A stretch of 42,077 nt of DNA from positions 1 through 42,077 of the forward strand of contig CAMJPM010000017.1 in assembly GCA_946407725.1 (NCBI GenBank), read 5' to 3'. The notes under the pieces are model-generated. The model had not been told where the DNA came from, ran no database searches, and saw only the letters and a program-made list of their open reading frames with translations. Shown here piece by piece: positions 1 through 25,375 of this stretch; the stretch's first letter is position 1; the number at the start of each line of letters is the position of its first letter. The DNA is from an uncultured Lachnospiraceae bacterium. GTDB taxonomy: Bacteria > Bacillota > Clostridia > Lachnospirales > Lachnospiraceae. Both the position numbers and the translations under genes were made by a program.

Positions 1-2029
1 TGTGCTCTTCGTCCTTTTTCCCCTCCCCCAGGATGAGATAATTCCTCTCGTCCAGGTCATAAAAGACATCCTCACCGAAAAAGGCGTTGGCGCGTACCTC
101 GGTCAGGTCCATCTGTCCCATCTCATATAAGGGACACTTGTAGGACGGGGTGAACTTCGTCATAAGAGGGAAATTATTGAAGGTCACCACAATGGAATTA
201 CCCGTGCTCTTATGGTTATTAAGCCTCGTAAGGTCAGAGGGGTAGATCAGGGGTCTCACCTGGGTCTGGCTGGAAATATTGATATTTCCACTCTTATCCT
301 GAAGCCCTGAGGACACGCTCTGGGTCCTGACGGTCATATTTCCGCACATTTTAGAAAATTCCTCACAGGTGGGGATATCGTTTGAACCGATGAAAAGCTT
401 GATGCCGCAGTTACCCTTTACGATATCCGCCACGGTTTCCCCGTATACATTTTTCAGCTGGGCGAAGGACTGGACTATCATCTCGAACCAGATCTTCCTG
501 GAACGGCCTACAGTGATCATCTTGTCAAATTTCTCGATCTTTGGCATATTACCGAACTCATCCAGGAGGAAGAATACGTTCCTTGGGAGAGACAGATCCT
601 CCCTGGCACTAGCCACCTTGATAAGCGCCTTATAGATACAGAGGATGAACACTGCGGCAAGGGCGTGTCTCGTATCCTTCTCATCCGGTATCTTTAAGAA
701 CAGCGCCGTAGGCCTGTCCGCAAATTCCACAGGCTTTATATCCGTGGCGGATGTAAGGGCGCACAGTCCTTCATCGTTAAACATGGACAGCTTGTCGAAG
801 GCTATACTCATATATGATGAAAGGGTCTGGTCGGCAGCTGATAAAACCTGCCTGGAAAGACCCACTGCCTTCGAGAGCTTTGACCTCCCCTCAAAGTAGT
901 CCTTCAGGCTCGCAAACTCATCCTCGGAATTTGAGATCGCTTTATTGATATTGTAGAAGCAGAACTTATCCTTCGTCATTTCAAGCTTCGGGTCTTCACT
1001 GTCCTCCAGCATGGCAAGGGCGGTTGCCATTATTATGGATCTGGCACCCTTCTCCCACACCGGGTCCTTCTCATTCTCTATTGGACAGATAACACTGATA
1101 AGGTCATTCAGATCCTCGTAGCACATATCGTAAAGCTTCTGCTTCTCGACCATCACCTTTTTTATAAGGTCGATCCTCACTGCATAGGCCACATTTTCCC
1201 ATTCATACCACGGCTCATCCTCGTCGAATTCCGATATGTCATGGGCTCTCTTCATATCCGGATAATTCTCTATGGAATCCAAATGCTCCAGGATACCGGC
1301 CCCGATATGGAGATACTGCTGATAGGTGTCATAGATATCCCCCAGAGGATTCCAGCGGAAGGAACTGTAGGGATCACGGAGATCCAGCACCATGCATTTA
1401 TAGCCGTTTTCATTGAGGAGCTTTGAATGCATCTGGAAAAGCTCCCCCTTGGGGTCCGTGCAGATCATGGAGGAGCCTGCCTTTGCGCGGCCCAGTATCT
1501 GTACCACCGGATTCACAAAGGTGGTGGTCTTACCGGAACCGGTAGCTCCTATGATGATGCCGTGAGCCGGAGGCATGATATTGATGTCCATATCCTTTTT
1601 CTTGCTGTTATAAACGGCATACAGGGGGATGCCGTCCTTCTTCAGCTCGGAAAGCTTCGAAAACTGGGTCTTTGGGAAAAGTTCATTTCTCTCCTTTTCC
1701 TCCATCCAGCGGGAATTCTCAAGGGAGCCTTCAACCCGCTCCGCCTTTCCGCGAAGAAGGCGGTTCGATGCCCTGAAAACGCCTCTGGTGCCGTAGACAA
1801 AATTGAGGGTGACTATTATAACAATCTCCACCGTCCCCAGCATAAGGGACTCCGGCTTGAAGATATCCCAGAAGCCCGCGCCTGCCAGGGTCATGCCCTT
1901 CCCAAGCATGGCGTTTGTAAGGGCTAAGAGCATGGCAGAGCTAAAGATACCCAGCAAAACCGCCGACACTATAAGCACCGGTGTCCATCTCAATATCAGT
2001 TTCAGATCGTCCTGCAACTCTTCTCTCAT
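1..2029 (-). CDS. VirD4/TraG-type coupling ATPase, 3' end outside window
   Basis: Read on the minus strand from the ATG at 2029; the frame stays open for 676 codons and leaves the window. Two hydrophobic segments lie at about residues 11-35 and 60-80. A Walker A (GATGSGKT) sits near residue 161 and a Walker B-like LLDEFGN near residue 485, the layout of the T4SS-DNA_transf (TraG/VirD4) family: inner-membrane hexameric ATPases that pass substrates to a type IV secretion channel. The ATG directly follows an in-frame stop, and the nearest strong ribosome site (AAGGAG) is about 15 nt away, a long spacing. It begins 51 bp after the CPBP gene with no terminator between, so it may be the distal gene of the 11355-leftward operon. 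The family is clear. Whether it serves conjugation or the neighbouring proteins is not visible here. Confidence 0.93.
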   Translation of the reverse strand, partial: MREELQDDLKLILRWTPVLIVSAVLLGIFSSAMLLALTNAMLGKGMTLAGAGFWDIFKPESLMLGTVEIVIIVTLNFVYGTRGVFRASNRLLRGKAERVEGSLENSRWMEEKERNELFPKTQFSKLSELKKDGIPLYAVYNSKKKDMDINIMPPAHGIIIGATGSGKTTTFVNPVVQILGRAKAGSSMICTDPKGELFQMHSKLLNENGYKCMVLDLRDPYSSFRWNPLGDIYDTYQQYLHIGAGILEHLDSIENYPDMKRAHDISEFDEDEPWYEWENVAYAVRIDLIKKVMVEKQKLYDMCYEDLNDLISVICPIENEKDPVWEKGARSIIMATALAMLEDSEDPKLEMTKDKFCFYNINKAISNSEDEFASLKDYFEGRSKLSKAVGLSRQVLSAADQTLSSYMSIAFDKLSMFNDEGLCALTSATDIKPVEFADRPTALFLKIPDEKDTRHALAAVFILCIYKALIKVASAREDLSLPRNVFFLLDEFGNMPKIEKFDKMITVGRSRKIWFEMIVQSFAQLKNVYGETVADIVKGNCGIKLFIGSNDIPTCEEFSKMCGNMTVRTQSVSSGLQDKSGNINISSQTQVRPLIYPSDLTRLNNHKSTGNSIVVTFNNFPLMTKFTPSYKCPLYEMGQMDLTEVRANAFFGEDVFYDLDERNYLILGEGKKDEEH

Positions 2030-2080
2030 TTAATGTCGATGCCGCTCCTTCCGGCTAAATGACCAGATGACATTCCGCCA

Positions 2081-2983
2081 TCAGGCTTTATTAAACAATC
2101 TGCTTATATATCCGCTTGTCCTTTCCAGTTCATATACCCGGTAGGCGAAAAGCGCTGCCCCCGCGCCTGTGAATCCAAGGACCGTTATAAGCAGCTTATC
2201 CTGCCTCAGTGCTTCCTCCGAACCCGGCAGAAGGGCATACATATACCAGAGCACGGTTCCCGGCAGATTGAAGCCCAGATGCAGCAGTATGGAATAAAAT
2301 ATATTGTCCTCCCTGATGGCAAGCTTTCCCAGTATCCACGCCATGACGACTGAATAGAGGAACCAGATCGCCGAACCGTGCATCATGCCGAAAACAAAGC
2401 TTACGGCGATCAAGGCCCATTTTTCGCCCCAGTGCGGAAGCAGCCTGTTCAGCATGTATCCCCTGAATATAACCTCCTCCACCAGTGGAGTAAAAAAAGT
2501 ATTCACTGCCACTCCGAAAAGGATGCTCCAGCTCCTGTACAGCTTCCCGATCTGCACTTCATACCCCTCTACAGGCCCGATGGAGGGTAAAAGAGATATA
2601 AGGGCGGAGATGAAAAGTGCCGTGCCAGCACCGAACAGTACCGCCATCAGGCTCTTAACAAGGCTCAGATCGTCCCTGTAAAGGGATGCGTCCTCGAAAA
2701 AGGTGCTGCCCTTTTTCCTGGAATATCTCCTCAAAATGAAGAAAGTGGTAAAAACAGTGAATATGCTGCATACACTGCTCTTCTCATGGAGAAATTCCTC
2801 ACGGGTTACCCCCGGACGGAATACCATGGATCCTATAAGGATGAATCCCATATTCAGACTGATATACAATAACACCGGCCACACGGCGGGGAAAAAGTAG
2901 CGGATAAATTTAATAAACCCCTGTTCCGCTTTTTTACGGGCTTTACCGGTTTCAGGCTCTTCACCCCTTAGATTAATACGCAT
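2081..2983 (-). CDS. CPBP-family intramembrane metalloprotease
   Basis: This 300-aa polytopic membrane protein carries the three CPBP (CAAX protease/bacteriocin-processing, Abi) motifs: EEVIFRG at residues 169-175, FGMMHG with His202, and HLGFN at 235-239. Family members are glutamic-type proteases inside the membrane; some process or confer immunity to peptides, others process prenylated proteins. Several hydrophobic segments span the chain from about residue 30, after a basic cytosolic N-terminus. It starts 3 bp after the stop of the 161-aa gene, so the two are co-transcribed and probably translationally coupled. Its substrate is unknown. In this operon it could act on the 918-aa membrane protein or the coupling ATPase complex, which is inference only. 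Confidence 0.9.
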   Translation of the reverse strand: MRINLRGEEPETGKARKKAEQGFIKFIRYFFPAVWPVLLYISLNMGFILIGSMVFRPGVTREEFLHEKSSVCSIFTVFTTFFILRRYSRKKGSTFFEDASLYRDDLSLVKSLMAVLFGAGTALFISALISLLPSIGPVEGYEVQIGKLYRSWSILFGVAVNTFFTPLVEEVIFRGYMLNRLLPHWGEKWALIAVSFVFGMMHGSAIWFLYSVVMAWILGKLAIREDNIFYSILLHLGFNLPGTVLWYMYALLPGSEEALRQDKLLITVLGFTGAGAALFAYRVYELERTSGYISRLFNKA

Positions 2984-2986: not shown

Positions 2987-3472
2987 TTACAGTCCTGAAT
3001 AAACCTGCAAAGCTTCAAATCTTGCACGGCTTAAGGAAAGGAGGGCCTGATCCGCTTCCACCTGGGCTATATTCGTGTCTATGGCATCGAGATACATGGA
3101 AAGGGCATCTTTAAGCTCGCTCCTCCACATAGCCTCTGTCACCCGGGAGCTTTTTTCCTGAACCTCCGTCACTATACCCATAAGCTTATCTCTAAGTTCC
3201 TCCGGCACATCCTTCATTTTCAGGTCATCGGGCTTAAGGGTACTGTCCAGGCTGTCCTCAATGTCCATAAGCTCTCCGATATGATCCTCGGGGTCTGTAT
3301 CCTTATCCTCTCCCGCGTCATTATCGATATCATTTACCATTTCCAGAATGTCATTTCTGGTATCCCGCAGAAATGTAAGCCTCTCCTCATATTCCTTCTC
3401 CATATCGCTGTAGAAATCCAGCTCGTTTTGGATAAGACCCGCCATTCTTGTATCTGTGTCCATTACATCCAT
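2987..3472 (-). CDS. Small acidic helical protein, unknown function
   Basis: 161 aa, no signal peptide and no membrane segment. The sequence is almost wholly helix-forming, with an acidic linker (DNDAGEDKDTDPEDH) near residues 50-65 between two predicted coiled-coil halves. A GAGGAGG ribosome site precedes the ATG. It starts 15 bp after the stop of the 918-aa coiled-coil gene and ends 3 bp before the CPBP protease, so it belongs to the same operon. I do not recognise a family. Size and position would suit a chaperone or adaptor for the larger proteins, but nothing in the sequence proves that. Confidence 0.8.
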   Translation of the reverse strand: MDVMDTDTRMAGLIQNELDFYSDMEKEYEERLTFLRDTRNDILEMVNDIDNDAGEDKDTDPEDHIGELMDIEDSLDSTLKPDDLKMKDVPEELRDKLMGIVTEVQEKSSRVTEAMWRSELKDALSMYLDAIDTNIAQVEADQALLSLSRARFEALQVYSGL

Positions 3473-3487: not shown

Positions 3488-6244
3488 TCACATTCCGCCC
3501 ATGTTCGGCGCGAGTGCTTCTCTCTTCTTTCTCCTCTGCTGATATATCTCTCTGGAATTATTCAGGTTCCTGCGGTTATTATTGATTTTTTCTTCATTCT
3601 CTACGTAGTCATTCATGGTCTTTTTCATACGTTCGCTTAATTGCTTCTGTGCTTCCGCCACTTCATTCTTCAGATCAACCAGCTCCTTTTCTCTCCTGTT
3701 CTTATCCGCCTGTGTTTCATTATGTATCTTAACGGCTTCAAGGTTTTTACGGAAATTCAATTCATTGAGCTTATCCACGTAATCCTCTGAACGATCTTTG
3801 GCAAATCTGAGATTCAGGTTATCCTCATCTGTTTTGCTTTTATTGAAGGCACCGGCCTTTTCATATACATCCAGATACTCTTTCTCCAGGAACCCCTGTC
3901 TTTCCGGATCTTTAAGCGCGTCTCTCAGCTTTCCGATGGAATCATAGAGCTCCTTCTGTTCCTTCGGGGCATTGTCCATATTCCTGTTATTCCCGTCCAG
4001 AAGATCTTCCTGAAATGAACTTAACATAGAATCTCTGAAAAGCCTGAGCTTATCCTTATTTTCCCTGGCCTCCCGCACTTCATTCATATATTTTTTATAA
4101 TCCTGAATAACGTTCTTTCGCGGTTCGGGCTCGCCCTCCACCGGAAATTCATTCAGCTTATGATTCACATCCTGGGCAGAAAACCATGCCCTCTTAACCT
4201 CCTTCGGGACATTTTCATTCCAGTCCTTCTTGCCATCTTCCCCGGCATGCTGATATTCCTCCTGTATGGTCCGCCTCAAGTTATATGCCGCTTCATAAAG
4301 CTCCACCTTAGACGGTGCATTGAAATTATCCATGTCATATTCCTTGTTCAGGGAATAGGCATCCAGCTTTTTCTGATACTCATTCAGATTTTTCTTTAAT
4401 TCGTCGCTGTACTTATTTTTATGGATCCTGGTCTGGCTGATAAGCTTACTGCAGGTGTCTTTTGCTTTGCTCTCGGTTTCCTCATCTAACTGATGATCCG
4501 TATAAGCCTTCATGTAAGTATCATTATTGATGGTTTCTATGTTTACGAAGGTCAGGTTATCATTTATATTTTTACTCGCATCAGCTGCATTGCCGGCTTC
4601 ATTCAGGAATCTGCCCTCATTGTCCTTCAGATACCGGGCGTATTCCAGCTCCTTTTCATTTGCAAGGTGCTGCAGCTCCTCCATGATATTCTTATCTTTT
4701 TCTATATTGCCGCCGATCTCCTTCTCATTCTTTTCCAGAGCGTCCTGTTCATCTGACAGACGTATTACATCCTGTTCGGCAGCATTGAGTTCCTCATCAG
4801 CTTTAGCTATTTCCTGTTCGAGGTTTGCGTTATTCTGAGGCTGATTCCGGTTCTCTGCATTCTGAACCGGATTCAGGTTCTGGTTCGCATTCAGGTTCTG
4901 GTTTGCATTCAGATTCTGATCCGCCGCATTCACGGGCTGAACCGGAACCGGTCCCTGATTCTGTCCCTGGTTCAGAGCCTGATTCTCCCTGTTCTGAGCC
5001 ATGTTCTGACCTTGGTTCACTGGCTGTCCCTGACCGAAGGCCTGTCTCATATAGGCTTCGGTGGGCCTGTTCAGCAGATCCATTACGTTCTGCCCGGCAT
5101 TCTGCAGCTGTGCATTCATCATCTGCGGATTCTGCTGCAGTGCATCCCCTCCCATGTCCAGAAGTCTCTGATCCATCACATTTTGCAGGTTCTGCGCTGC
5201 CATCCGGTCCTGACCCATCCCATTCATCTGCATCCGGTTCTGCATATCCATCTGGTTCTGCATTCCCATCTGATTCTGCATTCCCATCTGGTTCTGATCC
5301 TGCATTCCCATCTGGTTCTGGTATTGCTGCATATCCATCTGGTTCTGATAGGGCTGCATATTCATCCGGTTCAGGATCTGCAGCTGTTCAGCCATTTCAT
5401 TTATTCTCTGCTGCTGGTTCCGAAGCTGCATCTGCTGATCCATCAGCTCCTGCTGCTGCCGGTTTATCATATCCATCAGCTGCTGGTTCCGGAGCTGTAT
5501 CTGCTGGTTCATCAGATCCTGCTGCTGCCGGTTCATCATATCCTGCAGCTGCTGGTTCTGGTTCTGCAGCTGCTGGTTCCAGTCCATCATATCCTGACCA
5601 AACGGGGGCATCATCTGCTGCTGTGCCTGCATCATCTGCTGCTGCGCCTGCATCATCTGGGGCTCCTGTGCCTGAACCATCTGGGGCTGCTGAAGCTGCA
5701 TCATCTGGGGCTGCTGCGCTTGAACCATCTGGGGCTGCTGAACCTGGATCACCTGGGGCTGCTGCGCCTGAACCGTCTGGGGCTGCTGAACCTGGATCAC
5801 CCGGGGCTGTGCCTGTGCCGCCTGGGGCTGCGCCTGTGCCGCCTGGGGCCGGGCAGCACCGGGATTGTTCCTAAGGCCTCTCACTTCGCCCCTAAGAGAC
5901 AAGAGCTGCTCCTTCAGCTTCTGGATATCCTCCATTTCCCTGCCGGCCTTCTCCCTGGCCTTCTCCCTCTTATCCTCGGCGGCCTCCCTGTTTTGTGCCT
6001 GTTTCTGATGCTTTATCTCATTACGAACCTTCCTGGTCCTCCAGTAGCGGAAGAGGTTATAGGCACCGTTTACCAGCTTCATGGCAAGGAAGACCCAGAG
6101 CATTATAGGATTCGCCGCAGCGGCTACCAGCAGCGGAAAGCTTAAGAACTTGGTAAACTTGTCAAGCTTACTGTCCTTCAGCTTACCGTTTTCGTCCACC
6201 ATATCCCTTAATTTATCTTTTCCGGTATTCCTTGCCTCTGCCAT
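3488..6244 (-). CDS. 918-aa membrane-anchored Q/M/N-rich coiled-coil protein
   Basis: The N-terminus (about residues 30-68) has one or two hydrophobic segments ending in a basic stretch (RYWRTRKVRNEIKHQKQ), so the rest is probably cytosolic. A coiled coil follows at about 70-125. Residues about 130-420 are low complexity: short repeats of the type QQPQMVQAQ, then longer repeats built on NRQQQxLMxQQxQLRNQQ, then NQMGMQ units. From about 455 onward it is a charged coiled-coil protein ending in a basic tail (QQRRKKREALAPNMGGM). An AAAGGA ribosome site precedes the ATG. It follows the phosphatase gene by 87 bp and leads into the 161-aa, CPBP and TraG-like genes. No family is recognised; a scaffold role is inference. 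Confidence 0.85.
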   Translation of the reverse strand: MAEARNTGKDKLRDMVDENGKLKDSKLDKFTKFLSFPLLVAAAANPIMLWVFLAMKLVNGAYNLFRYWRTRKVRNEIKHQKQAQNREAAEDKREKAREKAGREMEDIQKLKEQLLSLRGEVRGLRNNPGAARPQAAQAQPQAAQAQPRVIQVQQPQTVQAQQPQVIQVQQPQMVQAQQPQMMQLQQPQMVQAQEPQMMQAQQQMMQAQQQMMPPFGQDMMDWNQQLQNQNQQLQDMMNRQQQDLMNQQIQLRNQQLMDMINRQQQELMDQQMQLRNQQQRINEMAEQLQILNRMNMQPYQNQMDMQQYQNQMGMQDQNQMGMQNQMGMQNQMDMQNRMQMNGMGQDRMAAQNLQNVMDQRLLDMGGDALQQNPQMMNAQLQNAGQNVMDLLNRPTEAYMRQAFGQGQPVNQGQNMAQNRENQALNQGQNQGPVPVQPVNAADQNLNANQNLNANQNLNPVQNAENRNQPQNNANLEQEIAKADEELNAAEQDVIRLSDEQDALEKNEKEIGGNIEKDKNIMEELQHLANEKELEYARYLKDNEGRFLNEAGNAADASKNINDNLTFVNIETINNDTYMKAYTDHQLDEETESKAKDTCSKLISQTRIHKNKYSDELKKNLNEYQKKLDAYSLNKEYDMDNFNAPSKVELYEAAYNLRRTIQEEYQHAGEDGKKDWNENVPKEVKRAWFSAQDVNHKLNEFPVEGEPEPRKNVIQDYKKYMNEVREARENKDKLRLFRDSMLSSFQEDLLDGNNRNMDNAPKEQKELYDSIGKLRDALKDPERQGFLEKEYLDVYEKAGAFNKSKTDEDNLNLRFAKDRSEDYVDKLNELNFRKNLEAVKIHNETQADKNRREKELVDLKNEVAEAQKQLSERMKKTMNDYVENEEKINNNRRNLNNSREIYQQRRKKREALAPNMGGM

Positions 6245-6302: not shown

Positions 6303-6336
6303 ATTTTACCATAACAAGTGCGACAAAAATGTCACA
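6303..6336 (-). promoter_or_regulatory. Candidate promoter/operator before the 918-aa gene
   Basis: On the minus strand a near-palindrome TGTGACA-TTTT-TGTCGCA (6319-6336) overlaps the phosphatase stop codon. It is followed 21 bp after its TGACA by TAAAAT (6303-6308), preceded by TGG as in an extended -10. The sigma factor gene at 11505 has the same box (TGACATTTYTGTCRCAC) at exactly the same 21-bp distance from its TATAAT. This suggests an internal promoter with a shared regulator. Confidence 0.5.
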
Positions 6337-8059
6337 GATCATCTGCGCTTCCCCTGTATTCAAGAACCATCATGGTGATATCGTCATACTGCGGCGCTTC
6401 TCCCACGAAACGGTCCACCTCCTTATGTATCCCGTCAAGGAAATCCGCTACGCTGTCCTCTGCGTGGTCATTTAATGCCTTAAGCATCCTCTCCATGCCG
6501 AAAAGCTCTTCTTCCTTATCCTGTGCCTCCAGCAGGCCGTCCGTGTAAACGAAGATGCGGTCCCCCTTCTCAAGCTTCCATTCATTCTCCTCAAATTCCA
6601 CTCCCTTGAATATGGCGAGTCCCGGCCCGTTTACACCCTTTTCAAGTATGAATTCCTTTTTGCCCGAATGCCCCTTCCGGTAAATGCAGGGGTATTCATG
6701 GCCGCCGTTGGCTGCTGTGAGAAGCCCTGATGCAACGTCAAGGATCCCCAGCCATACCGTCACGAACACCATGACTTTATTCCCTTCCGCCAGTATGTCG
6801 TTTACCTCCGCCAGTATCTCACCCGGGGTCAGTCTTTTATATGACCGGGATACATTCCTTATGACGGTCTTTGCCCCCGCCATGAAAAGAGCTGCCGGTA
6901 TTCCCTTTCCCGATACATCCGCCATCACGAGTGCCAGGTGGTCACGGTCTATGAAGAAGAAGTCAAAGAAATCCCCCGCCACCTCCTTGGCCGAATCCAT
7001 GGAGGCGCAGAGGTCAAATTCCTTTCTGTCCGGGAATGGCGGGAATACACTTGGAAGCATCTGGGACTGTATCTGTCCCGCGATGGCGAGCTCAGTATCC
7101 AGCCTTTCCTGCTCCGCTGTCATCAGAGTGATCTTTTTTACGGAGCTCCGGATATCCTGTTCCATTTTCCTGACAGATGCATAAAGATCCCCTATCTCAT
7201 CCTTATTCTTTATCAGGATTCCATCAAAAACCGGCTCTGCGTCCTTCAGCCCCCTCTCCCCCATCTCACTGTATTTTCCGGCGGCCTTTGACAGCATGGT
7301 CACGGGGCGGAGGACCCTCGTGGTTAAAATGTATGAGATGGAAAGGGCAAAAACAACCATCATCAGGAAGATCGAAACCAGAGTAAACCTCGCCGTCATC
7401 ATTGTATCATTGCTTATGGCACGATCCTTGATGTCAACGGAGAGATATATCATGAGCTCCCCGTTTCTGTCTCTTACGGGAACTGTGTGGGTGATCATGG
7501 GTCCCGCCGCCTCCGTTGAATAAAGGAAGGATTCTATCGGCTCACCTGTTTTCCTGTAATAGTCTTCGTGCCTGTTTATCCTTTTCCCAAGGGGATACCG
7601 ATACTTCTCGTAATCCGAATCAAACATCACCACAAAGGCCCTGTCGTCCTCATCGTATGCCATTATGGTAATGGATCCGAAATCACCTCTGTGTCTGAAG
7701 CTTTGGAGCACCCTCATGATCTCCCTGTATTCCGGTCTTTCTTTCAGGGTGTCATAAAGGCTGTAATATTCATCAGTGACATATGCATCCATTGAATCTT
7801 TCGCGGTTTCTGAGACAGAGTTAAATATCTCAAGGGTCTCATTCCTTATCTCCTTAAGTGAATTCTGATCCAGAAGAGACATAAGTATCTTCTCCGTATC
7901 CTCCGCAAATTCGATATAAATATCCTTTACGGACAACTGGACCACCCAGATGATCATGGCCTGGATAAGGATCCCTATTATCAGCACCCCCAGAAGCAAG
8001 ATCCAGAACGCCTTTACCTTCAGCGATATCCATTTCTCCCGTATCTTAAATATATTCAT
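6332..8059 (-). CDS. Membrane sensor PP2C-type (SpoIIE/RsbU-like) serine phosphatase
   Basis: 575 aa. TM1 is at about residues 16-40, an extracellular sensor region (Cache/PAS-like size) at 41-222, TM2 at 223-246, a HAMP segment at about 247-305 and a short linker helix. A SpoIIE-type PP2C domain covers about 330-570 with AGDFFD (361-366), ADVSGKG (380-386), YTDGLLEA (505-512) and DDIT (559-562), the metal-binding acidic residues. Such enzymes dephosphorylate anti-anti-sigma or similar STAS proteins in partner-switching pathways. No STAS or RsbW-like gene is next to it. Its ATG overlaps the stop of the 551-aa gene by 4 bp (ATGA), so it is translationally coupled to that gene. A 17-codon copy of its own 5' end lies at 9734-9787. 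Confidence 0.93.
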   Translation of the reverse strand: MNIFKIREKWISLKVKAFWILLLGVLIIGILIQAMIIWVVQLSVKDIYIEFAEDTEKILMSLLDQNSLKEIRNETLEIFNSVSETAKDSMDAYVTDEYYSLYDTLKERPEYREIMRVLQSFRHRGDFGSITIMAYDEDDRAFVVMFDSDYEKYRYPLGKRINRHEDYYRKTGEPIESFLYSTEAAGPMITHTVPVRDRNGELMIYLSVDIKDRAISNDTMMTARFTLVSIFLMMVVFALSISYILTTRVLRPVTMLSKAAGKYSEMGERGLKDAEPVFDGILIKNKDEIGDLYASVRKMEQDIRSSVKKITLMTAEQERLDTELAIAGQIQSQMLPSVFPPFPDRKEFDLCASMDSAKEVAGDFFDFFFIDRDHLALVMADVSGKGIPAALFMAGAKTVIRNVSRSYKRLTPGEILAEVNDILAEGNKVMVFVTVWLGILDVASGLLTAANGGHEYPCIYRKGHSGKKEFILEKGVNGPGLAIFKGVEFEENEWKLEKGDRIFVYTDGLLEAQDKEEELFGMERMLKALNDHAEDSVADFLDGIHKEVDRFVGEAPQYDDITMMVLEYRGSADDL

Positions 8060-16397: not shown

Positions 16398-18995
16398 TCA
16401 GCCTAAACCTGGTTTTTTCTGACCCTTCTTCCTGCTCTTACCCTTTTTCGGAACTTCAACCTGATTCTGGTTATGGAACAGATTCTCCCCAAAGTTCGGG
16501 TTCTCCTCATGCAAAAGACCGTTTAAGCCCCCCACATCCCTGACTGGCCCGTTGATCTCCACATTCTCCGCTTCAATATCGACAAAGCCGTCAGCCTCTC
16601 TGGCATCGGACATTTTGATTTTCTTACCGCCGATTACTTCTTTAACCTCAAGTCCCTTTGTCTGATTATTGAAAGTATCACTACCATTAAAGAATCTGTT
16701 GGGAATGGTATTGGAATAAGTCCGGTATGACAGTTCCATCATTCTCCTCGCAGGCTCTTCCCTGTCCTTATTGTGGAAGAGATCCTTTCTATGGTATATC
16801 AGATAGGCTCTCGCTTTATCCCCCATCTCTTCACAGACAGACCTTGCATCAAAGATATTGCTTTCCTTCAGATCCATATCCGCGAATTCCTTCATGGCTG
16901 CCATCATAGACTGGAACTGATCGGATTTCTTTTTCGACCGGGTCGCCTTTTCCAGCGCCTCATAGTTCCGTCTGGCCTCGCTCTGGCAGGTCAGGAGATC
17001 CATATATACCTTATTGGCCTTCTCCTTGCTCTTTTGCCTGTCTTCATACAGGTCGATGGCATCCTTATGCCTGTAGGCTTCCTGAAAGGCCTGTCTGAAT
17101 TCCATAGTGCTGTAATCCTTGACTTTTTCAAAGCCCTTCTGATCCAGAACCCCGGGTTCCTTCAGCTCTGACAGGGCAGCACTTATCTTATTATTTATTG
17201 ATGTCTTCTCCGCCCATTTTATTTCGTTGGGATTTTCATATTCCTTAATTACTTTATCCACAGCATCAAACCTGCTTTGGATCTCGCTTATACTCATATT
17301 CCTGCAATCGGAAAGAGACTGAAGATTTACCATTAGATCTCTTAGTGCTGCATTATTGACCTTATTGGCCTTTGTGATCTCCAAGACCTTTTCAAGCGCT
17401 TTCTCCGCCTTATGGGAAGTATCATCCACCTGATTATACAGTCTGACCACCCTGCCGTATTCCTTTGCTTTTCTCTTCTGTTCCTGTATCCTGACCCGGT
17501 TCTCTTCCTCTCTCTGTCTCCTCTCTTCTGCCTCCCGCTGCCTATCCTCCTCTCCGGCCTTGAAAAAGGCGGCATCGAAAGCTTCTTTATCCCGCTCCAT
17601 GCTCCTGCCGTTACGGATATAAGAGTCAGCCTTCTCAGGATCCACATAGTTCAGTATCCTTATGGCTTCCTTCACCTTCCAGCTGTTCAAGGCTTCACCG
17701 TCTACATAGGCGCTTATCTTATCCGACAGGGCTTTTGCCCAGTTGTCAAATTCAGGATCAGCCTTGCCAAATACAGACTCAAGATCCCTCTTCCCAAGGA
17801 AGCTTCTGATCGCACCCAGCATTTCCCCATAGGCTTTGCCTTCCCCTTCTCTTTCCGCTGACAGAGCATCGCAGATATCCTTGATATCCTTTTTGGTAAT
17901 CTCGACGTTATTGCCTTTGAAATTGTCATAAATTATAGTTCTCACATAATTAGCCCTGGATTCATACGCACTATCCCTGTTTTTTTGATTATCGAGGTAC
18001 GGGTTCAGGTAGCCTAGAGCAGCACTTTTTCCTATGGTGTCATCCGGCAGTCCTTTAATAAGCTCTCTTATCTGTTCTGTCAGATCATATTTGTTAAAGC
18101 GGGCGGCAAGTGCTGCATCACCTTTTTCCGGCGATATAAAGGGCAGCTTCCTGTTTACCCCCTTCTTCATATCCTCAATCAACTGCATGACCGGATGATC
18201 CTTGGAAAGACCCTTCGAGATTTCAAACAGTCCATATATAACCTCTTGAGGCAACTGCAGTTTGTCATCCTTTATGAAATCTCGATAATAATCCCGCCGT
18301 TTATCCTTGTTATCCCAGAAAGCGATGTAAACGTCTATGGAATCAATGAGCTTCCTTTGTGCCCCAGTGCGGTCATTTTCCGGGATTTTCAAAAGAGCGC
18401 TTTTCAGATCATTTATCTTTTTTTCAGGTACCCTTTCTCCCATGTGTCTCTGTATATTGAGAACCAGCTTCTTCAGATCCTCATTGACCCTGCCGTCAGA
18501 AGTAAGCTCGGCATCCATCATATCCTGGAAGAATACGTAGCTGTCATTATCCCCCATATCGAAGTAGAAATTTTTTTCACCTTTTATATCTCTGATCTCT
18601 CTGTATCTCGCGAGCATACGCCCGGCTTCCGCCTTCTGTGATGTGACAAGCTCCTGCCTTCCCGGATCATTTAAGAAAGCAGTTATGGCTTCCTTTATGC
18701 CTTTGACATCTACACCATCCTCCTGATCCTGCAGGTTCTGCTTATTGATATCACCAAGTATCCGTTCAAGCTCCTCCTGCACAAGGAAGTCTCCAACGGG
18801 TGTATTGGGGGCAAAGACTTTATAGTCGCTTTCACTCCACACATACCCATTTGAAACAAATTCTCTCAAATGTCTGCCTAAATATCCTATACTGGCGTTC
18901 GTTCCTTCCAGTTTCTCCAGATTATCAAAAAGAGCCTGAGGGCATTTCCAACCATGGGTAGCCACATTTGCTTCAACATTGATTCCATCTGCCAT
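16398..18995 (-). CDS. Unknown helical protein, 865 aa, same C-terminal theme
   Basis: No family recognised. It is mostly helical, with a charged coiled coil near residues 490-530 (EEDRQREAEERRQREEENR). Its C-terminal region contains a divergent copy of the module seen in the neighbours (KSDQFQSMMAAMKEFADMD...DKARAYLIYHRKD...PARRMMELSYRTYS). A distinct about 90-residue segment follows (KGLEVKEVIGGKKIKMSDAREADGFVDIEAENVEINGPVRDVGG) with a beta-rich look, and then the basic tail VPKKGKSRKKGQKKPGLG. No signal peptide or transmembrane segment. It starts 69 bp after the 670-aa gene with a hairpin in the gap. The downstream gap (16284-16397) carries the promoter of the next unit. Confidence 0.85.
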   Translation of the reverse strand: MADGINVEANVATHGWKCPQALFDNLEKLEGTNASIGYLGRHLREFVSNGYVWSESDYKVFAPNTPVGDFLVQEELERILGDINKQNLQDQEDGVDVKGIKEAITAFLNDPGRQELVTSQKAEAGRMLARYREIRDIKGEKNFYFDMGDNDSYVFFQDMMDAELTSDGRVNEDLKKLVLNIQRHMGERVPEKKINDLKSALLKIPENDRTGAQRKLIDSIDVYIAFWDNKDKRRDYYRDFIKDDKLQLPQEVIYGLFEISKGLSKDHPVMQLIEDMKKGVNRKLPFISPEKGDAALAARFNKYDLTEQIRELIKGLPDDTIGKSAALGYLNPYLDNQKNRDSAYESRANYVRTIIYDNFKGNNVEITKKDIKDICDALSAEREGEGKAYGEMLGAIRSFLGKRDLESVFGKADPEFDNWAKALSDKISAYVDGEALNSWKVKEAIRILNYVDPEKADSYIRNGRSMERDKEAFDAAFFKAGEEDRQREAEERRQREEENRVRIQEQKRKAKEYGRVVRLYNQVDDTSHKAEKALEKVLEITKANKVNNAALRDLMVNLQSLSDCRNMSISEIQSRFDAVDKVIKEYENPNEIKWAEKTSINNKISAALSELKEPGVLDQKGFEKVKDYSTMEFRQAFQEAYRHKDAIDLYEDRQKSKEKANKVYMDLLTCQSEARRNYEALEKATRSKKKSDQFQSMMAAMKEFADMDLKESNIFDARSVCEEMGDKARAYLIYHRKDLFHNKDREEPARRMMELSYRTYSNTIPNRFFNGSDTFNNQTKGLEVKEVIGGKKIKMSDAREADGFVDIEAENVEINGPVRDVGGLNGLLHEENPNFGENLFHNQNQVEVPKKGKSRKKGQKKPGLG

Positions 18996-19059: not shown

Positions 19060-19064
19060 CGATA

Positions 19065-21077
19065 TTACATGTTTATGTTGGCTTTCTTCTGCTTTTCCTT
19101 TGCCCTTGGCTTGTGGGTCTTCTCATAACGCTTCTGTTCTTTTACGGTCCTGTCAGAACGGTCCATGAGTTCATCTATGGACAGGGTCTTGGATTCATTG
19201 AGGAGATGCTTTATATTATGCATCTCGATCTTTGCATTGGCTGTTCCCTTATAAGCTACCCCGAGAGCTGAGAAGGCTATTTCATATCTGTTCTGGCCAT
19301 GATCTGTCTCTCTTGCCTTTTCCTCCTTGCCCTCTATGTATTTCAGAGCGGCATCACTGATAGCGTCAAAGGCAGCCTCCATCCTTGCCCTTTCATCGGA
19401 TGATATTTCCCGCTTTTCAGCACTGACCTTCTTATACATATCCGCCGCAGCCTTCAGTTTCTTTTCCAGCTCATTATATTCCTTTGAATTGATATAGATC
19501 AGCCGGTCCTCATTTTTGAACTGCTCATACAGATTGTTCATCCTCCTTAAGGAATCCATACTTATGTCCCTGCCGGTCTGGAGCCAGGGCTTATTGTGGT
19601 GATCCTTGAGTATCTCTGCAGTCACGCTGTTGGACATTTTATGGGCTGCCTCACTCTCTTTATCAGATAATTGTTTATCCTCTCCGTAGATCACATTCTC
19701 ATTCAGGTTGGCTTCACTGAGGACCTCCTTGGCTTTATCAATAGTATCTTGAGTGAAAGCATCCCAAAGCGCCTCGTTCACACGCTCTTTATCCGCTTCC
19801 TTACCCAGTTGAACCCCTGTTTTCACGAGAACATAATGCCTCTTTAATTCCTTATTGACCTTGTTCCTTCCAAGTATTTCGAACAATTCGTTTTCATAGG
19901 CCATCCATTTTTTATAGAAGGGGCTGATATATGAAGCTGCCCTCCTGCGCTTTTCAATATCAGAGGTATCGTCAAGTATATCCTTGAAGTTATCCTTATT
20001 TTCTATGAACCTCGCATGCTCTTTTCTTAGCTCTGCGATCTCATCCCTTATGGCGTCAACCCTCTTAATAAACAGCTCCTTGTCCGGAGAGCCGTCCTCC
20101 AGTACAGGCGAAAAATGAACATTGCACACCTTCCTGAATAATTCCTTCTCACTGTTGGATAAAAGCTCCGCATCAACAAGGTCATATCCCTTATTTTCTT
20201 TTTTCTCCTGAAAGACCTTAAGTCTCCCCTTCTCAAGTATCCCGTCAAGGATAAATCCCTGCCTGTCCTTTTCTTCTTCAAGCCCCATATAGTATCTTCC
20301 ATATCTCCTGTTTTTGTCAGAGGAGAGCTGCTCGGACATATATTTAGGCTTATCTCCCATGGTCTTATCCTGAAGCCAGTTGAGATCAGCTCTTTCCAAA
20401 ATGCCTCTGTTTGATCTTTCAACTGCCGCTTCATACTCTTTCTTTGATAAACCCACATCCTCCGGTTCAACATTCTTCAAAGATTCAGCCGACACATTTA
20501 TGGCATCAATACCCTTTTCGTAGAAATATTTTTCGTCCTCTGTCAGGGTTTCAAGATATTTTTCCTCTCTGGCTTTCAATGCTTTATAAAAGGGCACGTC
20601 ATATTTATAATGAAAGTACTTTGATCTCGTTGCCCCTACAGTGGCAATGGCAGTACCTACAGCAATGCTGTATTTTATGGCCACTTCCGAGGCCTTGGTC
20701 AAAAATACGGCTTTTTCCTCACGTCTGTTCTGATCCTCCGGTATGAGCTTCAACTGCTTTTTGTATTCTCTTGCCGCCTCGATTCTGAGTTGGAGGGCAT
20801 AGTCCGCAAATTCACCCATCCGCCGCTCAAGCTTTTCCATATCAAGATGCAGTTCCTTCTCTTTATCCTCATACACGGGATACAGAAAATTCTCATAAAC
20901 ATCCATTATATAATTCATCTCATCTAAATAGAGCATCTTATCTTCACAGGCGTCCGCAGAGAGAATCCCCCCCATGAAGTCAACTATCTCAGCAGTCGTC
21001 TTATTTTCAAAGTTCCTCTTGTAATACTCATAAAACTCTTCTCTCCTGTCTGCTCTTGTGTCTCTTAACGGCGGCAT
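19065..21077 (-). CDS. Unknown family A protein, 670 aa
   Basis: Paralogue of the 673- and 671-aa proteins. The N-terminal RNFENKTTAEIVDFMGG, central KPKYMSEQLSSDKNRRYGRYYM and C-terminal NSKEYNELEKKLKAAA to NRYEIAFSALGVAYKG blocks are all kept, and the tail is basic (THKPRAKEKQKKANINM). It diverges mainly between about residues 60-200 and 400-470. GAAAGGAG precedes the ATG. An ECF-type promoter candidate lies about 90-110 bp upstream. The 418-bp gap upstream of it also contains a direct-repeat array and a gene remnant on the plus strand. No known function. Confidence 0.87.
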   Translation of the reverse strand: MPPLRDTRADRREEFYEYYKRNFENKTTAEIVDFMGGILSADACEDKMLYLDEMNYIMDVYENFLYPVYEDKEKELHLDMEKLERRMGEFADYALQLRIEAAREYKKQLKLIPEDQNRREEKAVFLTKASEVAIKYSIAVGTAIATVGATRSKYFHYKYDVPFYKALKAREEKYLETLTEDEKYFYEKGIDAINVSAESLKNVEPEDVGLSKKEYEAAVERSNRGILERADLNWLQDKTMGDKPKYMSEQLSSDKNRRYGRYYMGLEEEKDRQGFILDGILEKGRLKVFQEKKENKGYDLVDAELLSNSEKELFRKVCNVHFSPVLEDGSPDKELFIKRVDAIRDEIAELRKEHARFIENKDNFKDILDDTSDIEKRRRAASYISPFYKKWMAYENELFEILGRNKVNKELKRHYVLVKTGVQLGKEADKERVNEALWDAFTQDTIDKAKEVLSEANLNENVIYGEDKQLSDKESEAAHKMSNSVTAEILKDHHNKPWLQTGRDISMDSLRRMNNLYEQFKNEDRLIYINSKEYNELEKKLKAAADMYKKVSAEKREISSDERARMEAAFDAISDAALKYIEGKEEKARETDHGQNRYEIAFSALGVAYKGTANAKIEMHNIKHLLNESKTLSIDELMDRSDRTVKEQKRYEKTHKPRAKEKQKKANINM

Positions 21078-21162: not shown

Positions 21163-21191
21163 TATATACGATTGACCGCGGAAAATCCGCC
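21163..21191 (-). promoter_or_regulatory. Candidate ECF-sigma promoter for the 670-aa gene
   Basis: Minus strand: GGCGGATTT (21183-21191), 12 bp, CGTATATA (21163-21170). Same boxes and spacing as at 11407 and 16332. As at 16332, the upstream half is a dyad (GCGGATTTTCCGC). Confidence 0.65.
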
Positions 21192-21228
21192 GCTCCTGAC
21201 AGTCATTGGCACAGTTCTTTTGACGTCC

Positions 21229-21513: not shown

Positions 21514-23340
21514 AAGCGCAGGTTTCTCTTTCTTCACCTGTCTTTTGGAGCCGGAGGACTGGATAATTTTCTCCTCCGCCTTCGCATTCATGCCTTCTTT
21601 GGCTTGAAGCGCCGAAAGGTTCGTGTCCTTAACCTTCTGACCAACCCGGACTGCCATCCTTTTCGCCTCTATCTGCTCCTCCTTATTCAGGACTTCCTGA
21701 AGAATGGAGGTGAGACCCTTTAATTCCTTTGCTCCTGCCAGTCTCTCTTTACCTGCCGGGGTACTGGGAGCCTTGCCGTTCTTTTCCCTGTGTTCTATAT
21801 AGAGATCAGCATTTTTACTGAGTGTGTTGAGCTTGTTTATGGTCTCCGCCAGAAGTTTCTGCTTTTCTTCACTGTTCATGGGGGTCGGTCCATCAAGGGT
21901 CTCCATCATCCCGTTCTTTAGCTTCTTTAGATTATCCCTGACCTTTTCTGCCGTTTCACGAAGCGTAATATGCTCATCGGATTCCTTTTTAAAGACCCCT
22001 GAACGTGCGGTACTGAACTTTGTAAGAGCGGCATCAAGGGCAGCCGTATGTTTCCTCATGATGGGAGTCCTTGCAAGCTCCCGGCCCAGCTCTCCGATCA
22101 TATGATCCAGGCCCCTCTTTCCGATAAAGCCCTTTTCTGCAGAGGTCAGCTGGTCAGCTTTTCCAAAGAGGGAAAGGGTTTCGGGAGTCGGATCAAGTGA
22201 CTTTTCGTAAAGCTCCCTGCACACCTCAAGCATATCTTCCTTAAGGTTGTCCAGCTTTATCCTGTAGGCAGCCTTCTCATCCCGGCTCATGTGCTTTCTG
22301 TTATTGACATAGTCGTTCTTCAGACGCTGGATCTCGTTGCCCTTTTTGAAAAAATCATCAAGGGGATACTGGGCAAGTGCCCTTTCAAGGCTGTCCGCAT
22401 TTTCAGCTTTCAGCATTTCGGCATTAAACTGGGGTAAAAATGTCTGCAGCCCCCAGTAGGCGGTTTCACAGGATCCTCCCGCTGCCACCAGATCTATTCC
22501 CGACTGAAGAGCCTCTGTCTGGACCCTTGCCATGTCGGTAATGCCTGCCTTAAAGGCCTGTACATGAGGATGATCCTTATCCGCCTCTTTACCGGCCTCA
22601 TATCCGTCCAGCCTTTTTCCAAGCTCATAAGCCATCCGTTTACATTCCAGGTCAAATTCGGCTGTGAGCTTATCTGCGCCGTTTTTATCCTTGACACCCA
22701 GTTCATGGTTCATCGATATCTTTACGACTGTGTTTTGAAGAAACTCCTCTTCCTCTTTGGAGCCTTTCTCCCAGAGTCCGAGGAAATTCCCCAGGACATC
22801 GTTTAACTGCATAAATACATTTACAGAATTGGTATTGAGCCTTGGGGACTTTGACCAGATGGCCTGTGCCTTCATCTCCTCAAAATACGCTGCATTCCCC
22901 GGTTCTGCTTCGATATTATCCAGTTCCCTTCCGAGGAAATTCCGCAGGTCACTCTTCCCATGCTCATTCAGCCTGCCCTTTGTAAAACAGGACAGTGCCC
23001 CACCCGATTGAAATGACATCTCGATCATTGCAGTGGCCTGCAGTGCATGGGAAAAAAAGGCGAACTCCTTCAAGGTCTTTTCATCGAACAGGTCGTTATG
23101 TTCACCGTCGACGATCATATTATCCAGCCTGGTCTCAAACTTCTCGGGAGTATAGGGTTTTCCCGTCTTCTTATCAATATACTTTTCAGGATGGGCTTCG
23201 TAATCCCTCCTTATTCCGGAACGCATATGATCCGTCAGGTCATTGACCTTTTTGATGGTATATTCCCTTATGGTCTGTTCAAACTTTCTCGCCTGATCCT
23301 CGGTTTCGATCTGTTCTATCAGTTCTGTCCACGCTGGCAT
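21496..23340 (-). CDS. Unknown helical protein, 614 aa, same C-terminal theme
   Basis: No family recognised. All-helical look, no signal peptide or transmembrane segment. The C-terminal third carries the module as ESDEHITLRETAEKVRD...NADLYIEHREKNGKAPSTPAGKERLAGAKEL (about residues 455-560), then a helical extension and a basic tail ending RQVKKEKPALKRSGF. It begins 19 bp after the 671-aa gene, so the two form one unit. The stop codon sits inside a strong hairpin (21488-21509). Function unknown. Confidence 0.85.
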   Translation of the reverse strand: MPAWTELIEQIETEDQARKFEQTIREYTIKKVNDLTDHMRSGIRRDYEAHPEKYIDKKTGKPYTPEKFETRLDNMIVDGEHNDLFDEKTLKEFAFFSHALQATAMIEMSFQSGGALSCFTKGRLNEHGKSDLRNFLGRELDNIEAEPGNAAYFEEMKAQAIWSKSPRLNTNSVNVFMQLNDVLGNFLGLWEKGSKEEEEFLQNTVVKISMNHELGVKDKNGADKLTAEFDLECKRMAYELGKRLDGYEAGKEADKDHPHVQAFKAGITDMARVQTEALQSGIDLVAAGGSCETAYWGLQTFLPQFNAEMLKAENADSLERALAQYPLDDFFKKGNEIQRLKNDYVNNRKHMSRDEKAAYRIKLDNLKEDMLEVCRELYEKSLDPTPETLSLFGKADQLTSAEKGFIGKRGLDHMIGELGRELARTPIMRKHTAALDAALTKFSTARSGVFKKESDEHITLRETAEKVRDNLKKLKNGMMETLDGPTPMNSEEKQKLLAETINKLNTLSKNADLYIEHREKNGKAPSTPAGKERLAGAKELKGLTSILQEVLNKEEQIEAKRMAVRVGQKVKDTNLSALQAKEGMNAKAEEKIIQSSGSKRQVKKEKPALKRSGF

Positions 23341-23359
23341 ATTTATGTTTTCTCCTTTT

Positions 23360-25375
23360 TTACAGGTTCATTGTGGCTTTCTGCTGCTTCTTCTTTGCCT
23401 TATTCCTGCTGCTTTTCTCATAGGTCTTCTGTTCTTTTACTGTCCTGTCTCCCCGGGCCATAAGCTCATCTATGGACAGGGTCTTGGATTCCCTGAGAAT
23501 ATGCTCTATATTATGCAGCTCGATCTTTTCAAGGGCCGCTCCCCTGGAGGCTACTCCCAGAGCTGCGAAGGCTATTTCATATCTGCTCTGTCCATGAGCT
23601 GTCTCTCTTTCCTTTTTCTCCTTGCCATCTATGTATTTCAGAGCCGCATCGCTTATGTCATCAAAGGCGCTTTCCATCTCTGCCCTTTCTTCAGGCAACA
23701 GTTCCCGGCCTTCTTTAGTCACCTTCCTGTACATATGCGCTGCATCCCTGAGCCTGTTCTTTAATTCAGTATATTCCTCTGAATTGACATAGATCAGACG
23801 ATCCGCATCTTTGAACTGTTTATACAGATTGTCCATCTTCTTTAAGTTGTCCAGATTCACATCCCTGCCGGTCTGAAGCCATGGCTTATTGCTGCGGTAT
23901 CCTTCCAGCATCCTGATGGTTTCGCTATTGGCCCTTTTATTAAGTGCCTCCCGCTCATTTTCAGAAAATGGTTTTTCCTCCCCGGATTCCAGCAGCTGGT
24001 GTTTTATTTCCTGGATACTGTCTCCTATGTCCTTTTCAAAAGCAGTCCGGATCGCCTCGTCCACTGCTTCCTTTTTCGCGTCTTTACCTGGTTCAGTACC
24101 TGTTTTTTGGGAAATATAATACCTTTTTAAGTCTTTGCTTATCTTTTTACTGCCAAAGATTTCCCTCATTTCTTTTTTATACGCTTCTATTTTCATATAG
24201 TGCGGGCTGATATATTTGGCAGCCTGCCTGCGCATGTCAGGATCTTCGTCATTCTGAAGAATTCCTGCGAAGTTGGGCTTTTTTTCAATGAAATCTGCGT
24301 GCTCCCTGTACAGTCTCGCAATCTCATCCCTGATGGCGTCAACTCTCCTTATAAACTGCTCTTTATCGGGCTCGCCGTTTTCCTTTATGGGTGAAAAATA
24401 GACATTGCACGCCTTCCCGAATACTTCCTTTTCCTTTTTCGATAAGCAGTCCACGCTGACCTGGTCACCGCTCTCCTTATATATAGAGAGGTTCCCTTTT
24501 TCAATCATTCCATCAAGAATGAAACCTTTTTTTCCATCCTCATCAAGTGTCATATAATATCTGCCATATCTGGAGTTTTTGTCAGAGGAGAGCTGCTCGG
24601 ACATATATCTGGGCTTCGACTTCATGGTCTCGTCACTTGCCCAGTTCAAGTCAACCTTTTCCATAAGGTTACGATGTGCTTTTCTGCTCGCTGCTTTTAG
24701 TTCATCTTCATTTAAGCCCACTTTTTCAGGGGGAGTATTCTTCAGGAGCTTTGGTGCGACTTCCAAAGCGTCATTGCCCAGCTTAAAATAATCTTTCTCA
24801 GTCTCTGACAGCGTTTCAAGATAATCCGAAACCCTGGAACTCAAAACCTCCAAAAACTTATTTTGATATTTATAATTAAAGGCATCCCCTCTTTGGTTTT
24901 GTACAGCATACACACCAATAGTTACAGCGGCAACGTACTTGTGGCACGGCTCTGTCTGCTGGGTCCTGTACATCGCTATCTTATTGCGGAAATCCTTATC
25001 TCCTGCCTCTTCGGGTATGAGACTGAGCTGCCTTTTGAATTCTTTTACTACCTCGATCTGCAGCTGAAGAGCATAATCCGCATATTCACCCATACGCTGC
25101 TCTATTTTATCCATCTCAAGAGTATATCTTCCGTCTTCATTTTTAACCGCATCCCCGTTTTTATCTCTTACCACAGGCATCAGATAATCCACGAAAGAAA
25201 AACCTATTTCTCCTATCTCATCATCGGAGATCAATTTGCTGTCAAATTGGTTCGCAAGAGTATTTCCTCCCATAAAGTCAATTATCTCAGCGGTCGTCTT
25301 ATTCTTATAGTTCCTGTTGTAATACTCTTCGATCTTTGAGCGCCTTTCCCCTCTCTTTCCATATTCCCTGATCAT
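23360..25375 (-). CDS. Unknown family A protein, 671 aa
   Basis: Paralogue of the 673- and 670-aa proteins, closest to the 673-aa one by eye (RYGRYYMTLDEDGKKGFILDGMIEKGNLSIY and CLSKKEKEVFGKACNVYFSPI are shared almost word for word). N-terminal RNYKNKTTAEIIDFMGG; C-terminal NSEEYTELKNRLRDAA to SRYEIAFAALGVASRG; basic tail ASSRNKAKKKQ-like (SSRNKAKKKQQKATMNL). It is the most upstream gene of the large-protein cluster. The ribosome site is AAAGGAAC, 12 bp before the ATG. A degraded version of the ECF-type promoter lies about 103-131 bp upstream. Confidence 0.87.
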   Translation of the reverse strand: MIREYGKRGERRSKIEEYYNRNYKNKTTAEIIDFMGGNTLANQFDSKLISDDEIGEIGFSFVDYLMPVVRDKNGDAVKNEDGRYTLEMDKIEQRMGEYADYALQLQIEVVKEFKRQLSLIPEEAGDKDFRNKIAMYRTQQTEPCHKYVAAVTIGVYAVQNQRGDAFNYKYQNKFLEVLSSRVSDYLETLSETEKDYFKLGNDALEVAPKLLKNTPPEKVGLNEDELKAASRKAHRNLMEKVDLNWASDETMKSKPRYMSEQLSSDKNSRYGRYYMTLDEDGKKGFILDGMIEKGNLSIYKESGDQVSVDCLSKKEKEVFGKACNVYFSPIKENGEPDKEQFIRRVDAIRDEIARLYREHADFIEKKPNFAGILQNDEDPDMRRQAAKYISPHYMKIEAYKKEMREIFGSKKISKDLKRYYISQKTGTEPGKDAKKEAVDEAIRTAFEKDIGDSIQEIKHQLLESGEEKPFSENEREALNKRANSETIRMLEGYRSNKPWLQTGRDVNLDNLKKMDNLYKQFKDADRLIYVNSEEYTELKNRLRDAAHMYRKVTKEGRELLPEERAEMESAFDDISDAALKYIDGKEKKERETAHGQSRYEIAFAALGVASRGAALEKIELHNIEHILRESKTLSIDELMARGDRTVKEQKTYEKSSRNKAKKKQQKATMNL

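Follow-up and report, generated by a model that had tools for sequence, protein, structure and literature searches.

A candidate effector-translocating type IV secretion system and its putative substrates in an uncultured Lachnospiraceae bacterium

Gene content of the window

The window analysed here is an entire contig of 42,077 nucleotides (C17; CAMJPM010000017.1) from the 3.28 Mb, 162-contig genome of an uncultured Lachnospiraceae bacterium (G000, the source genome), which carries one end of a putative type IV secretion system (T4SS) and eight large proteins, seven of which we treat as its candidate substrates. The genes form a minus-strand run in the order VirD4, CPBP protease, a 161 amino acid (aa) protein, a 918-aa protein, SpoIIE phosphatase, A1, A2, A3, B1, L1, B2, L2 and B3, with a sigma factor gene placed divergently within it (Table 1). 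As the window is a complete contig, the VirD4-like gene is cut at the contig end. A first-pass annotation, made from the letters of the window, had picked out the eight minus-strand open-reading frames (ORFs) at 8056–25375 and a VirD4-like ATPase; both calls were correct, the ORFs encoding 551, 523, 745, 673, 865, 670, 614 and 671 aa and the ATPase scoring above its family cut-off.

By BLAST, A1 and A2 share 61% identity and B1, B2 and B3 share 52–55%. A3 is chimeric: it carries the A-type N-terminal domain twice, and its C-terminal half resembles the B proteins (25–27% identity, E 5e-19 to 7e-27), a composition which suggests domain shuffling among the putative substrates. A PHROGs search gave no match for the unknown proteins of the window.

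The shared C-terminal module and its basic tail

All eight proteins had been proposed to end in one shared helical module and a basic tail. We iterated a module profile from same-genus homologues to a 26-row alignment, in which B1, A3 and B2 are the only window rows and from which A1, A2 and L2 are absent. The aligned core reads N-S-x-E-Y...L, Y-(I/L), G-x-x-R-x-x-x-A and K-x-V-x-L-x-x-L, and is followed by a basic tail in most rows. The profile matched A1 (E 1e-8), A2 (4e-11) and L2 (3e-7), each of which scored better than all of its 100 shuffles, and the result was repeated with A1 and A2 left out. Because this profile finds A1, A2 and L2 but not L1, the proposal holds for seven of the eight proteins (A1, A2, A3, B1–B3 and L2), with the tail alone remaining for L1. 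A first profile, built from A3, B1–B3 and three genus relatives, had no reach to A1, A2, L1 or L2, and a broader set of relatives was required. In a scan of the whole source genome at E 0.001, 16 module matches were found in 14 ORFs, with L2 missing from them. The 918-aa protein, also said to end in basic residues, does so (net +3 over the last 40 residues) and has no module.

The module was recovered mostly near the C-terminus, as expected from the first reading, with 50 of 58 module proteins carrying it within 90 aa of their end. The net charge of the last 40 residues was +4 to +10 in all eight window proteins; in the 50 proteins just mentioned its median was +6, against −1 in 220 other ORFs of at least 300 aa (p 2e-19, orthologues not thinned in either the pool of 58 or the charge statistics). 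A hydrophobic, membrane-like segment occurred in 1/58 module proteins vs. 84/220 other ORFs. In an AlphaFold model of the C-terminal piece of B1 (mean pLDDT 80.4 over the whole model), residues 91–240 were all helical with block pLDDT values of 87–98, followed by a disordered tail. A model of the whole of B1 gave no informative PDB match, and no BID structure was among the PDB fold matches listed for the module and for whole B1, an absence that does not count against a BID-like fold.

To survey what is fused to the module, 29 module proteins from outside the window were scanned against Pfam (in batches of 8, 9, 6 and 6); two others scanned with them do not carry the module and are not counted. 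Two carry a Fic domain above the cut-off of 24 bits (25.9 and 30.0 bits) with the motif HxFxD-x-NGRxxR, and in one of the two the module ends 113 aa short of the C-terminus. PI3/4-kinase-like matches were present in 9/29, two of them above the cut-off of 27.1 bits and seven below; one sub-cut-off match (26.3 bits) lies in the source genome, in a protein on contig C38 in which the module is internal. The Pfam matches of these 29 proteins included no peptidoglycan hydrolase or nuclease family.

The secretion machinery in the source genome and its relatives

Across the genus, the fetched loci share a conserved cluster encoding VirD4, CPBP protease, a methionine/glutamine (MQ)-rich protein, SpoIIE phosphatase, two VirB6-like proteins, VirB4, a STAS protein, a solute-binding lipoprotein, a pilin, a protein of 1563–1722 aa and an extracytoplasmic function (ECF) sigma factor, some members being incomplete in some of the fetched pieces. 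Related T4SS clusters also occur in other genera and families. Relatives of the window CPBP protease (47–57% identity) lie beside VirD4 in 9/10 other genus VirD4 loci, the contig of the tenth ending at that point, whilst relatives of the SpoIIE phosphatase (42–48%) are found on T4SS contigs of G032, G005 and G333, and those of the sigma factor (48–54%) on T4SS contigs of G032, G027, G005 and G333 and on contig C31 of the source genome. By position the 918-aa protein corresponds to the MQ-rich protein found in other clusters; as a homologue of that protein it was rejected, BLAST giving no significance and the profile score being weak and biased. A relative of the 161-aa acidic protein is present in G341 (32% identity over 158 aa, 8e-9; L071, 9436–10011), where its gene immediately precedes that of a 3065-aa module protein, and we regard the 161-aa protein as a possible secretion chaperone. 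By eye, a second SpoIIE phosphatase and ECF sigma pair was seen next to genes for an ABC exporter and a separate C39-like peptidase, near a module protein (L050, 6766–15227).

VirB4 and VirB6 genes had been expected beyond the VirD4 end of the window, and were located on contigs C31 and C52 of the source genome. The C31 VirB4 matches P-loop_TraG (70.2 bits, cut-off 25.8) and NF045975 (527.8 bits, under its cut-off of 590), the two VirB6-like proteins of C31 match NF045848 (172.1 and 144.6 bits, cut-off 90) and its pilin matches PF18895 (46.1 bits, cut-off 26.6); the C52 copy of VirB4 is 77% identical to that of C31. The source genome holds two T4SS copies, one on C31, which apparently continues onto C87, and the other apparently split between the window and C52. 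C52 ends in DNA coding for the acidic tail of a VirD4, and the window starts just before such a tail. Although no exact overlap was found between the two contig ends, we place them next to each other on the basis of the order of their genes, the tail-coding end of C52 and the congruence of two trees: G010 is the partner of the window VirD4 in one (81/92) and of the C52 VirB4 in the other (81/96), whilst the C31 VirD4 groups elsewhere (100/99; row G333 of the VirB4 tree came from a wrong ORF and is left out of account). The acidic tail of the window VirD4 presumably lies on C52. Such tails are present in ten genus orthologues, which end in 116–197 aa of roughly half or more aspartate and glutamate with 1–8 lysines and arginines, complementary in charge to the basic tails of the putative substrates.

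A shared promoter-like motif

Word pairs enriched upstream of 41 module genes relative to 249 others led to the motif GGGCTCATTTTT-N10-TGTATATA (best uncorrected p 1.6e-8), present within five mismatches before 20/41 module genes vs. 8/249 others, two of these eight being module proteins by separate searches. A matrix was made from 20 sites, two of them from the window (before A2 and B2). Four matrix sites above 10 bits were found in the window, before A2, B1, B2 and B3 and on their strand, with 20 shuffled windows reaching at most 15.5 bits, and matrix sites also stand ahead of T4SS operons in G027, G005 and G032.

Written in the form GGCNNATTTT-N11-YGTATAT, the degenerate pattern had 7 exact matches in the source genome, 10 in G027, 8 in G005, 6 in G032, 6 in G025 and 5 in G337, six genomes compared for having the T4SS and/or many module genes, against 0–1 in each of ten T4SS-negative genomes, which were chosen by hand. 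With one mismatch allowed, there were 7–17 sites per genome, compared with 0–5 in the T4SS-negative genomes and 0–5 for a reversed-pattern control. By ORF tables, 7/11 sites in the source genome, 11/17 in G027 and 7/11 in G005 lay no more than about 330 bp ahead of a gene for a module protein or T4SS part; for G032 the count was 3/12, and the reversed control gave 4. In a post hoc comparison within the source genome, six sites on C17 and C52 read CGTATA and seven on C31, C41, C1 and C87 read TGTATA, two −10-like forms that follow the two T4SS copies. On C87, ORFs of 122, 801 and 263 aa stand in a row behind one promoter site (L242, 4923–8648), and may be one interrupted substrate gene.

Table 1 Positions of the T4SS-associated features within the 42,077-nucleotide window
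Feature	Position	Strand	Evidence
VirD4-like coupling ATPase, 676 aa present, cut by contig end	2..2029	-	NF045973 281.5 bits, cut-off 250
CPBP intramembrane protease	2081..2983	-	PF02517 64.2 bits
161-aa acidic protein, 27% aspartate/glutamate	2987..3472	-	relative in G341
918-aa Q/M-rich membrane protein, hydrophobic N-terminus	3488..6244	-	no family match
SpoIIE-type phosphatase	6332..8059	-	PF07228 157.3 bits
A1, putative effector, 551 aa	8056..9711	-	module E 1e-8
C-terminal module of A1	8278..8667	-	genome profile scan E 2.6e-8
A2, putative effector, 523 aa	9784..11355	-	module E 4e-11
C-terminal module of A2	10006..10398	-	genome profile scan E 5.6e-11
Regulon promoter-like site before A2 and the A2-A1-SpoIIE-918-161-CPBP-VirD4 run	11407..11436	-	28.0 bits, in matrix; exact pattern match
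ECF-type sigma factor, presumed regulator	11505..12020	+	PHROG sigma family 1.9e-21
A3, chimeric putative effector, 745 aa	12010..14247	-	BLAST and module profile
C-terminal module of A3	12103..12669	-	profile alignment
A-type N-terminal domain, second copy in A3	13435..13794	-	
A-type N-terminal domain, first copy in A3	13882..14247	-	
B1, putative effector, 673 aa	14262..16283	-	BLAST and module profile
C-terminal module of B1, core a confidently predicted helical bundle	14355..14957	-	profile alignment and AlphaFold
Regulon promoter-like site before B1	16332..16361	-	17.1 bits, outside matrix
L1, 865 aa, basic tail, module undetectable	16398..18995	-	
B2, putative effector, 670 aa	19065..21077	-	BLAST and module profile
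C-terminal module of B2	19164..19763	-	profile alignment
Regulon promoter-like site before B2	21163..21192	-	27.7 bits, in matrix; exact pattern match
L2, putative effector, 614 aa	21496..23340	-	module E 3e-7
C-terminal module of L2 (residues 427-605)	21526..22062	-	profile match
B3, putative effector, 671 aa	23360..25375	-	BLAST and module profile
C-terminal module of B3	23459..24061	-	profile alignment
Regulon promoter-like site before B3	25478..25507	-	17.6 bits, outside matrix

Beyond these features, a DUF6577 protein adjoins the cluster (26260–27018; a strong Pfam match of 166 bits), and a MatE transporter lies at 29238–31025, the C-terminus of which is a weak match to HATPase_c_2 (E 0.038).

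Co-occurrence of the module and the T4SS

The module was found in 23/48 genomes of the genus and, with the source genome included, in 17/295 genomes of the order, where scans scored at most 10 candidates per genome for the module and 3 for the VirD4 clade. Within the genus, VirD4 clade members at 65–90% identity occur in 13/48 genomes including the source genome, matches beyond the clade reaching at most 32% over long stretches (short pieces to 43%), and VirB4 of the same system occurs in 16/48 at 66% identity or more, the next best being at most 34%. Counting related genomes as independent, the T4SS was present in 14/23 genus genomes with the module vs. 2/25 others (p 1.1e-4), and, when the 22 good genomes alone are counted, in 6/11 vs. 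0/11 (p 0.006). Across the order, the VirD4 clade was present in 9/17 module genomes vs. 12/278 others (p 1.3e-7, or 9.5e-7 without the source genome), and at a module E-value below 1e-6 in 7/10 vs. 14/285 (p 3e-7). In the genus genomes that lack this T4SS, no association of the module with other coupling ATPases was seen (p 0.87). The predicted co-occurrence with the VirD4/VirB4 clade was therefore significant in both genus and order, and did not extend to other coupling ATPases. Module and T4SS were found on the same contig in the source genome, G032 and G333, and 24 kb apart in G230, which belongs to another family. A weaker linkage was seen in G154, of another genus, where a module match (1.8e-8) lies 5 kb from the T4SS in a protein with no basic tail.

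An effector-translocating T4SS and its alternatives

Taken from these sequence comparisons, we consider it probable that the cluster is an effector-translocating T4SS whose substrates would carry a bipartite signal of module plus basic tail. The earlier interpretation, a protein-delivery or intracellular assembly system in which the basic tails would be recognition signals and the phosphatase, CPBP protease and scaffold accessories, gains support: the module finds, the co-occurrence and the location of VirB4 and VirB6 came out in its favour.

Several observations weigh against it. L1, encoded amidst the other candidates, has no supported module (0.4 bits, with 25/100 shuffles equally good; 1.4 bits and E 13 on retesting) and no relative among the 962 ORFs of the homologue search, with one intermediate profile scoring it at 8.2 bits (E 0.06), slightly above its 100 shuffles. 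A Pfam-type family scan gave no recognisable enzyme domain in the eight window proteins, and a PDB fold search matched the module to generic helical bundles only, too unspecific to name the fold. In family f11 the module is internal, ahead of a kinase-like domain, and the examined VirD4 proteins of other families, f11 included, have no long acidic tail. Nine module-bearing genus genomes are without this T4SS (G013, G030, G028, G009, G336, G337, G004, G019 and G026), amongst them the 98% complete G337 with six matches and the 96% complete G019 with three, and in two the reverse holds (G010 and G017, T4SS present and module not detected). The order likewise has 12 genomes with the VirD4 clade and no detected module, and eight of the reverse kind; some overlaps depend on weak module matches (G163, G179), the G154 match was not recovered by a local profile, and related genomes are not independent counts. 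As a separate observation on f11, a gene of 442–443 aa lies closely downstream in all three of its loci (L063, L083 and L084); the kinase-like domain behind the internal module is PI3/4-kinase-like in L063, the one scanned.

The same genes could instead form the conjugative system of an integrative element, the module proteins being DNA-transfer accessories or element-borne cargo. VirD4 falls in the CD1115 conjugal family and VirB4 is nearest to a family of integrative and conjugative elements (ICEs), and, as further points to set against protein delivery, a PF03432 relaxase ORF lies 1–2 kb from the T4SS end on C52, and on contig C3 of G027 a module gene has a relaxase fragment at a distance of about 1 kb. 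The latter site (L279, ~30.6–33.6 kb) gives the impression of a mobilisable element's insertion or decay. In G005, by contrast, a T4SS cluster and nine module matches occur in a genome with no match to PF03432, the single relaxase family searched, the nearest PF03432 match is more than 250 kb from the cluster in G032, and such matches are on other contigs in G027, G154 and G230; among 72,556 plasmids, none gave a VirD4 match of 60% identity or one spanning 80% of the query. With no PF03432 match in G005, none linked to the cluster in these four other genomes and no close VirD4 on plasmids, we hold conjugation to be the less likely role. Several module genes stand among housekeeping genes yet have the T4SS promoter, and the Fic and kinase-like fusions also speak against conjugation, which we judge an unlikely explanation.

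Secretion of the same kind could also serve against competing bacteria, the module proteins being toxins with immunity partners, as in the X-T4SS, where dispersed effectors with one C-terminal domain have the same layout in the published description (PMC6536674). No consistent immunity partner stands beside the 36 module genes with both flanks known, a same-strand gene of 50–300 aa being closely downstream in 2/36 and upstream in 8/36 by a crude test of size and distance, and the 29 proteins scanned by Pfam have no peptidoglycan hydrolase or nuclease families; we find the antibacterial use rather doubtful. A role of the module in intracellular assembly or membrane docking, within a co-regulated internal structure that merely shares the regulon of the T4SS, appears very improbable: the fold-match Z level is one usual for unrelated helical bundles, and the C-terminal position with its basic tail, the acidic VirD4 tail and the Fic and kinase-like fusions are hard to fit to it.

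Returning to effector translocation, the computation itself shows the module, the linkage of the genes, their co-occurrence, the common promoter, the charges of the tails and the enzyme fusions; we infer recognition by VirD4, secretion, injection, sigma specificity and a target that is more likely not a sister bacterium, as follows. The window would be the VirD4 end of a chromosomal T4SS with a battery of protein substrates. Module proteins would be made in the cytosol without signal peptides, and their C-terminal signal, the helical-bundle module and disordered basic tail, would dock on VirD4, probably helped by its long acidic tail. VirB4 and VirD4 would power their passage through a channel of VirB6 and pilin and on into another cell, in which the variable N-terminal portions, some of them Fic or PI3/4-kinase-like, would act. 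The ECF sigma factor, probably under a SpoIIE phosphatase/STAS switch, would turn on the machine and the dispersed substrates together.

Relation to known systems

The proposed arrangement fits one working like the BID system of Bartonella, to which we claim no homology. BID effectors are described as having a C-terminal helical-bundle domain and positively charged tail as a proposed bipartite signal, coupling through VirD4, and Fic among their N-terminal domains (PMC6509941). The Lachnospiraceae system is alike in its helical bundle and basic tail, variable N-terminal domains including Fic, and VirD4; the positive tail is a shared trait of the 50 proteins with near-terminal modules, f11 with its internal module being the exception. 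It differs in its Gram-positive host, the long acidic VirD4 tail, larger proteins, the ECF-type regulon and the lack of detected sequence similarity. The X-T4SS of Xanthomonadales is described as chromosomal, with dispersed effectors sharing the C-terminal XVIPCD domain (PMC6536674), which our system resembles in all three respects, whereas here no consistent immunity partner or antibacterial domain family was found. CD1115-type and Mbov_039x ICE conjugation systems share the VirD4, VirB4, VirB6-like and pilin families, but in the genomes searched no coupling protein from outside the clade exceeds 39% identity along a long stretch (short pieces to 43%), and the present system mostly has no linked PF03432 relaxase and has a substrate battery and regulon.

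According to a December 2025 review, nearly all known functions of Gram-positive T4SSs are DNA transfer, dedicated effector translocation is a long-standing question, and the 89K T4SS of Streptococcus suis, which is reported to export the protein SspA-1, is apparently its first case (PMC12857230). There the protein is released to the medium, and the review's account of 89K mentions no shared C-terminal module family (PMC12857230). Among the papers listed by a literature search, with preprints and most subscription papers outside its scope, none was on T4SS effectors in Lachnospiraceae.

The Lachnospiraceae locus offers a candidate with a machine, a diagnosable C-terminal signal, named substrate genes and a promoter motif. 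Tentatively, and with more reserve than for translocation itself, it is possible that gut Lachnospiraceae and related families have a dedicated effector-injecting T4SS aimed at eukaryotes, whether protists in the gut, fungi or the animal host. Each genome would then encode as many as about twelve effectors, some AMPylating, some kinases and some of other kinds, under one sigma regulon, and the system would have evolved independently of those of Bartonella and Legionella. If translocation itself is confirmed, gut bacteria would deliver proteins directly, which bears on whether Gram-positive T4SSs carry proteins and not DNA only, and studies of substrate reading by coupling proteins would gain a Gram-positive system for comparison.

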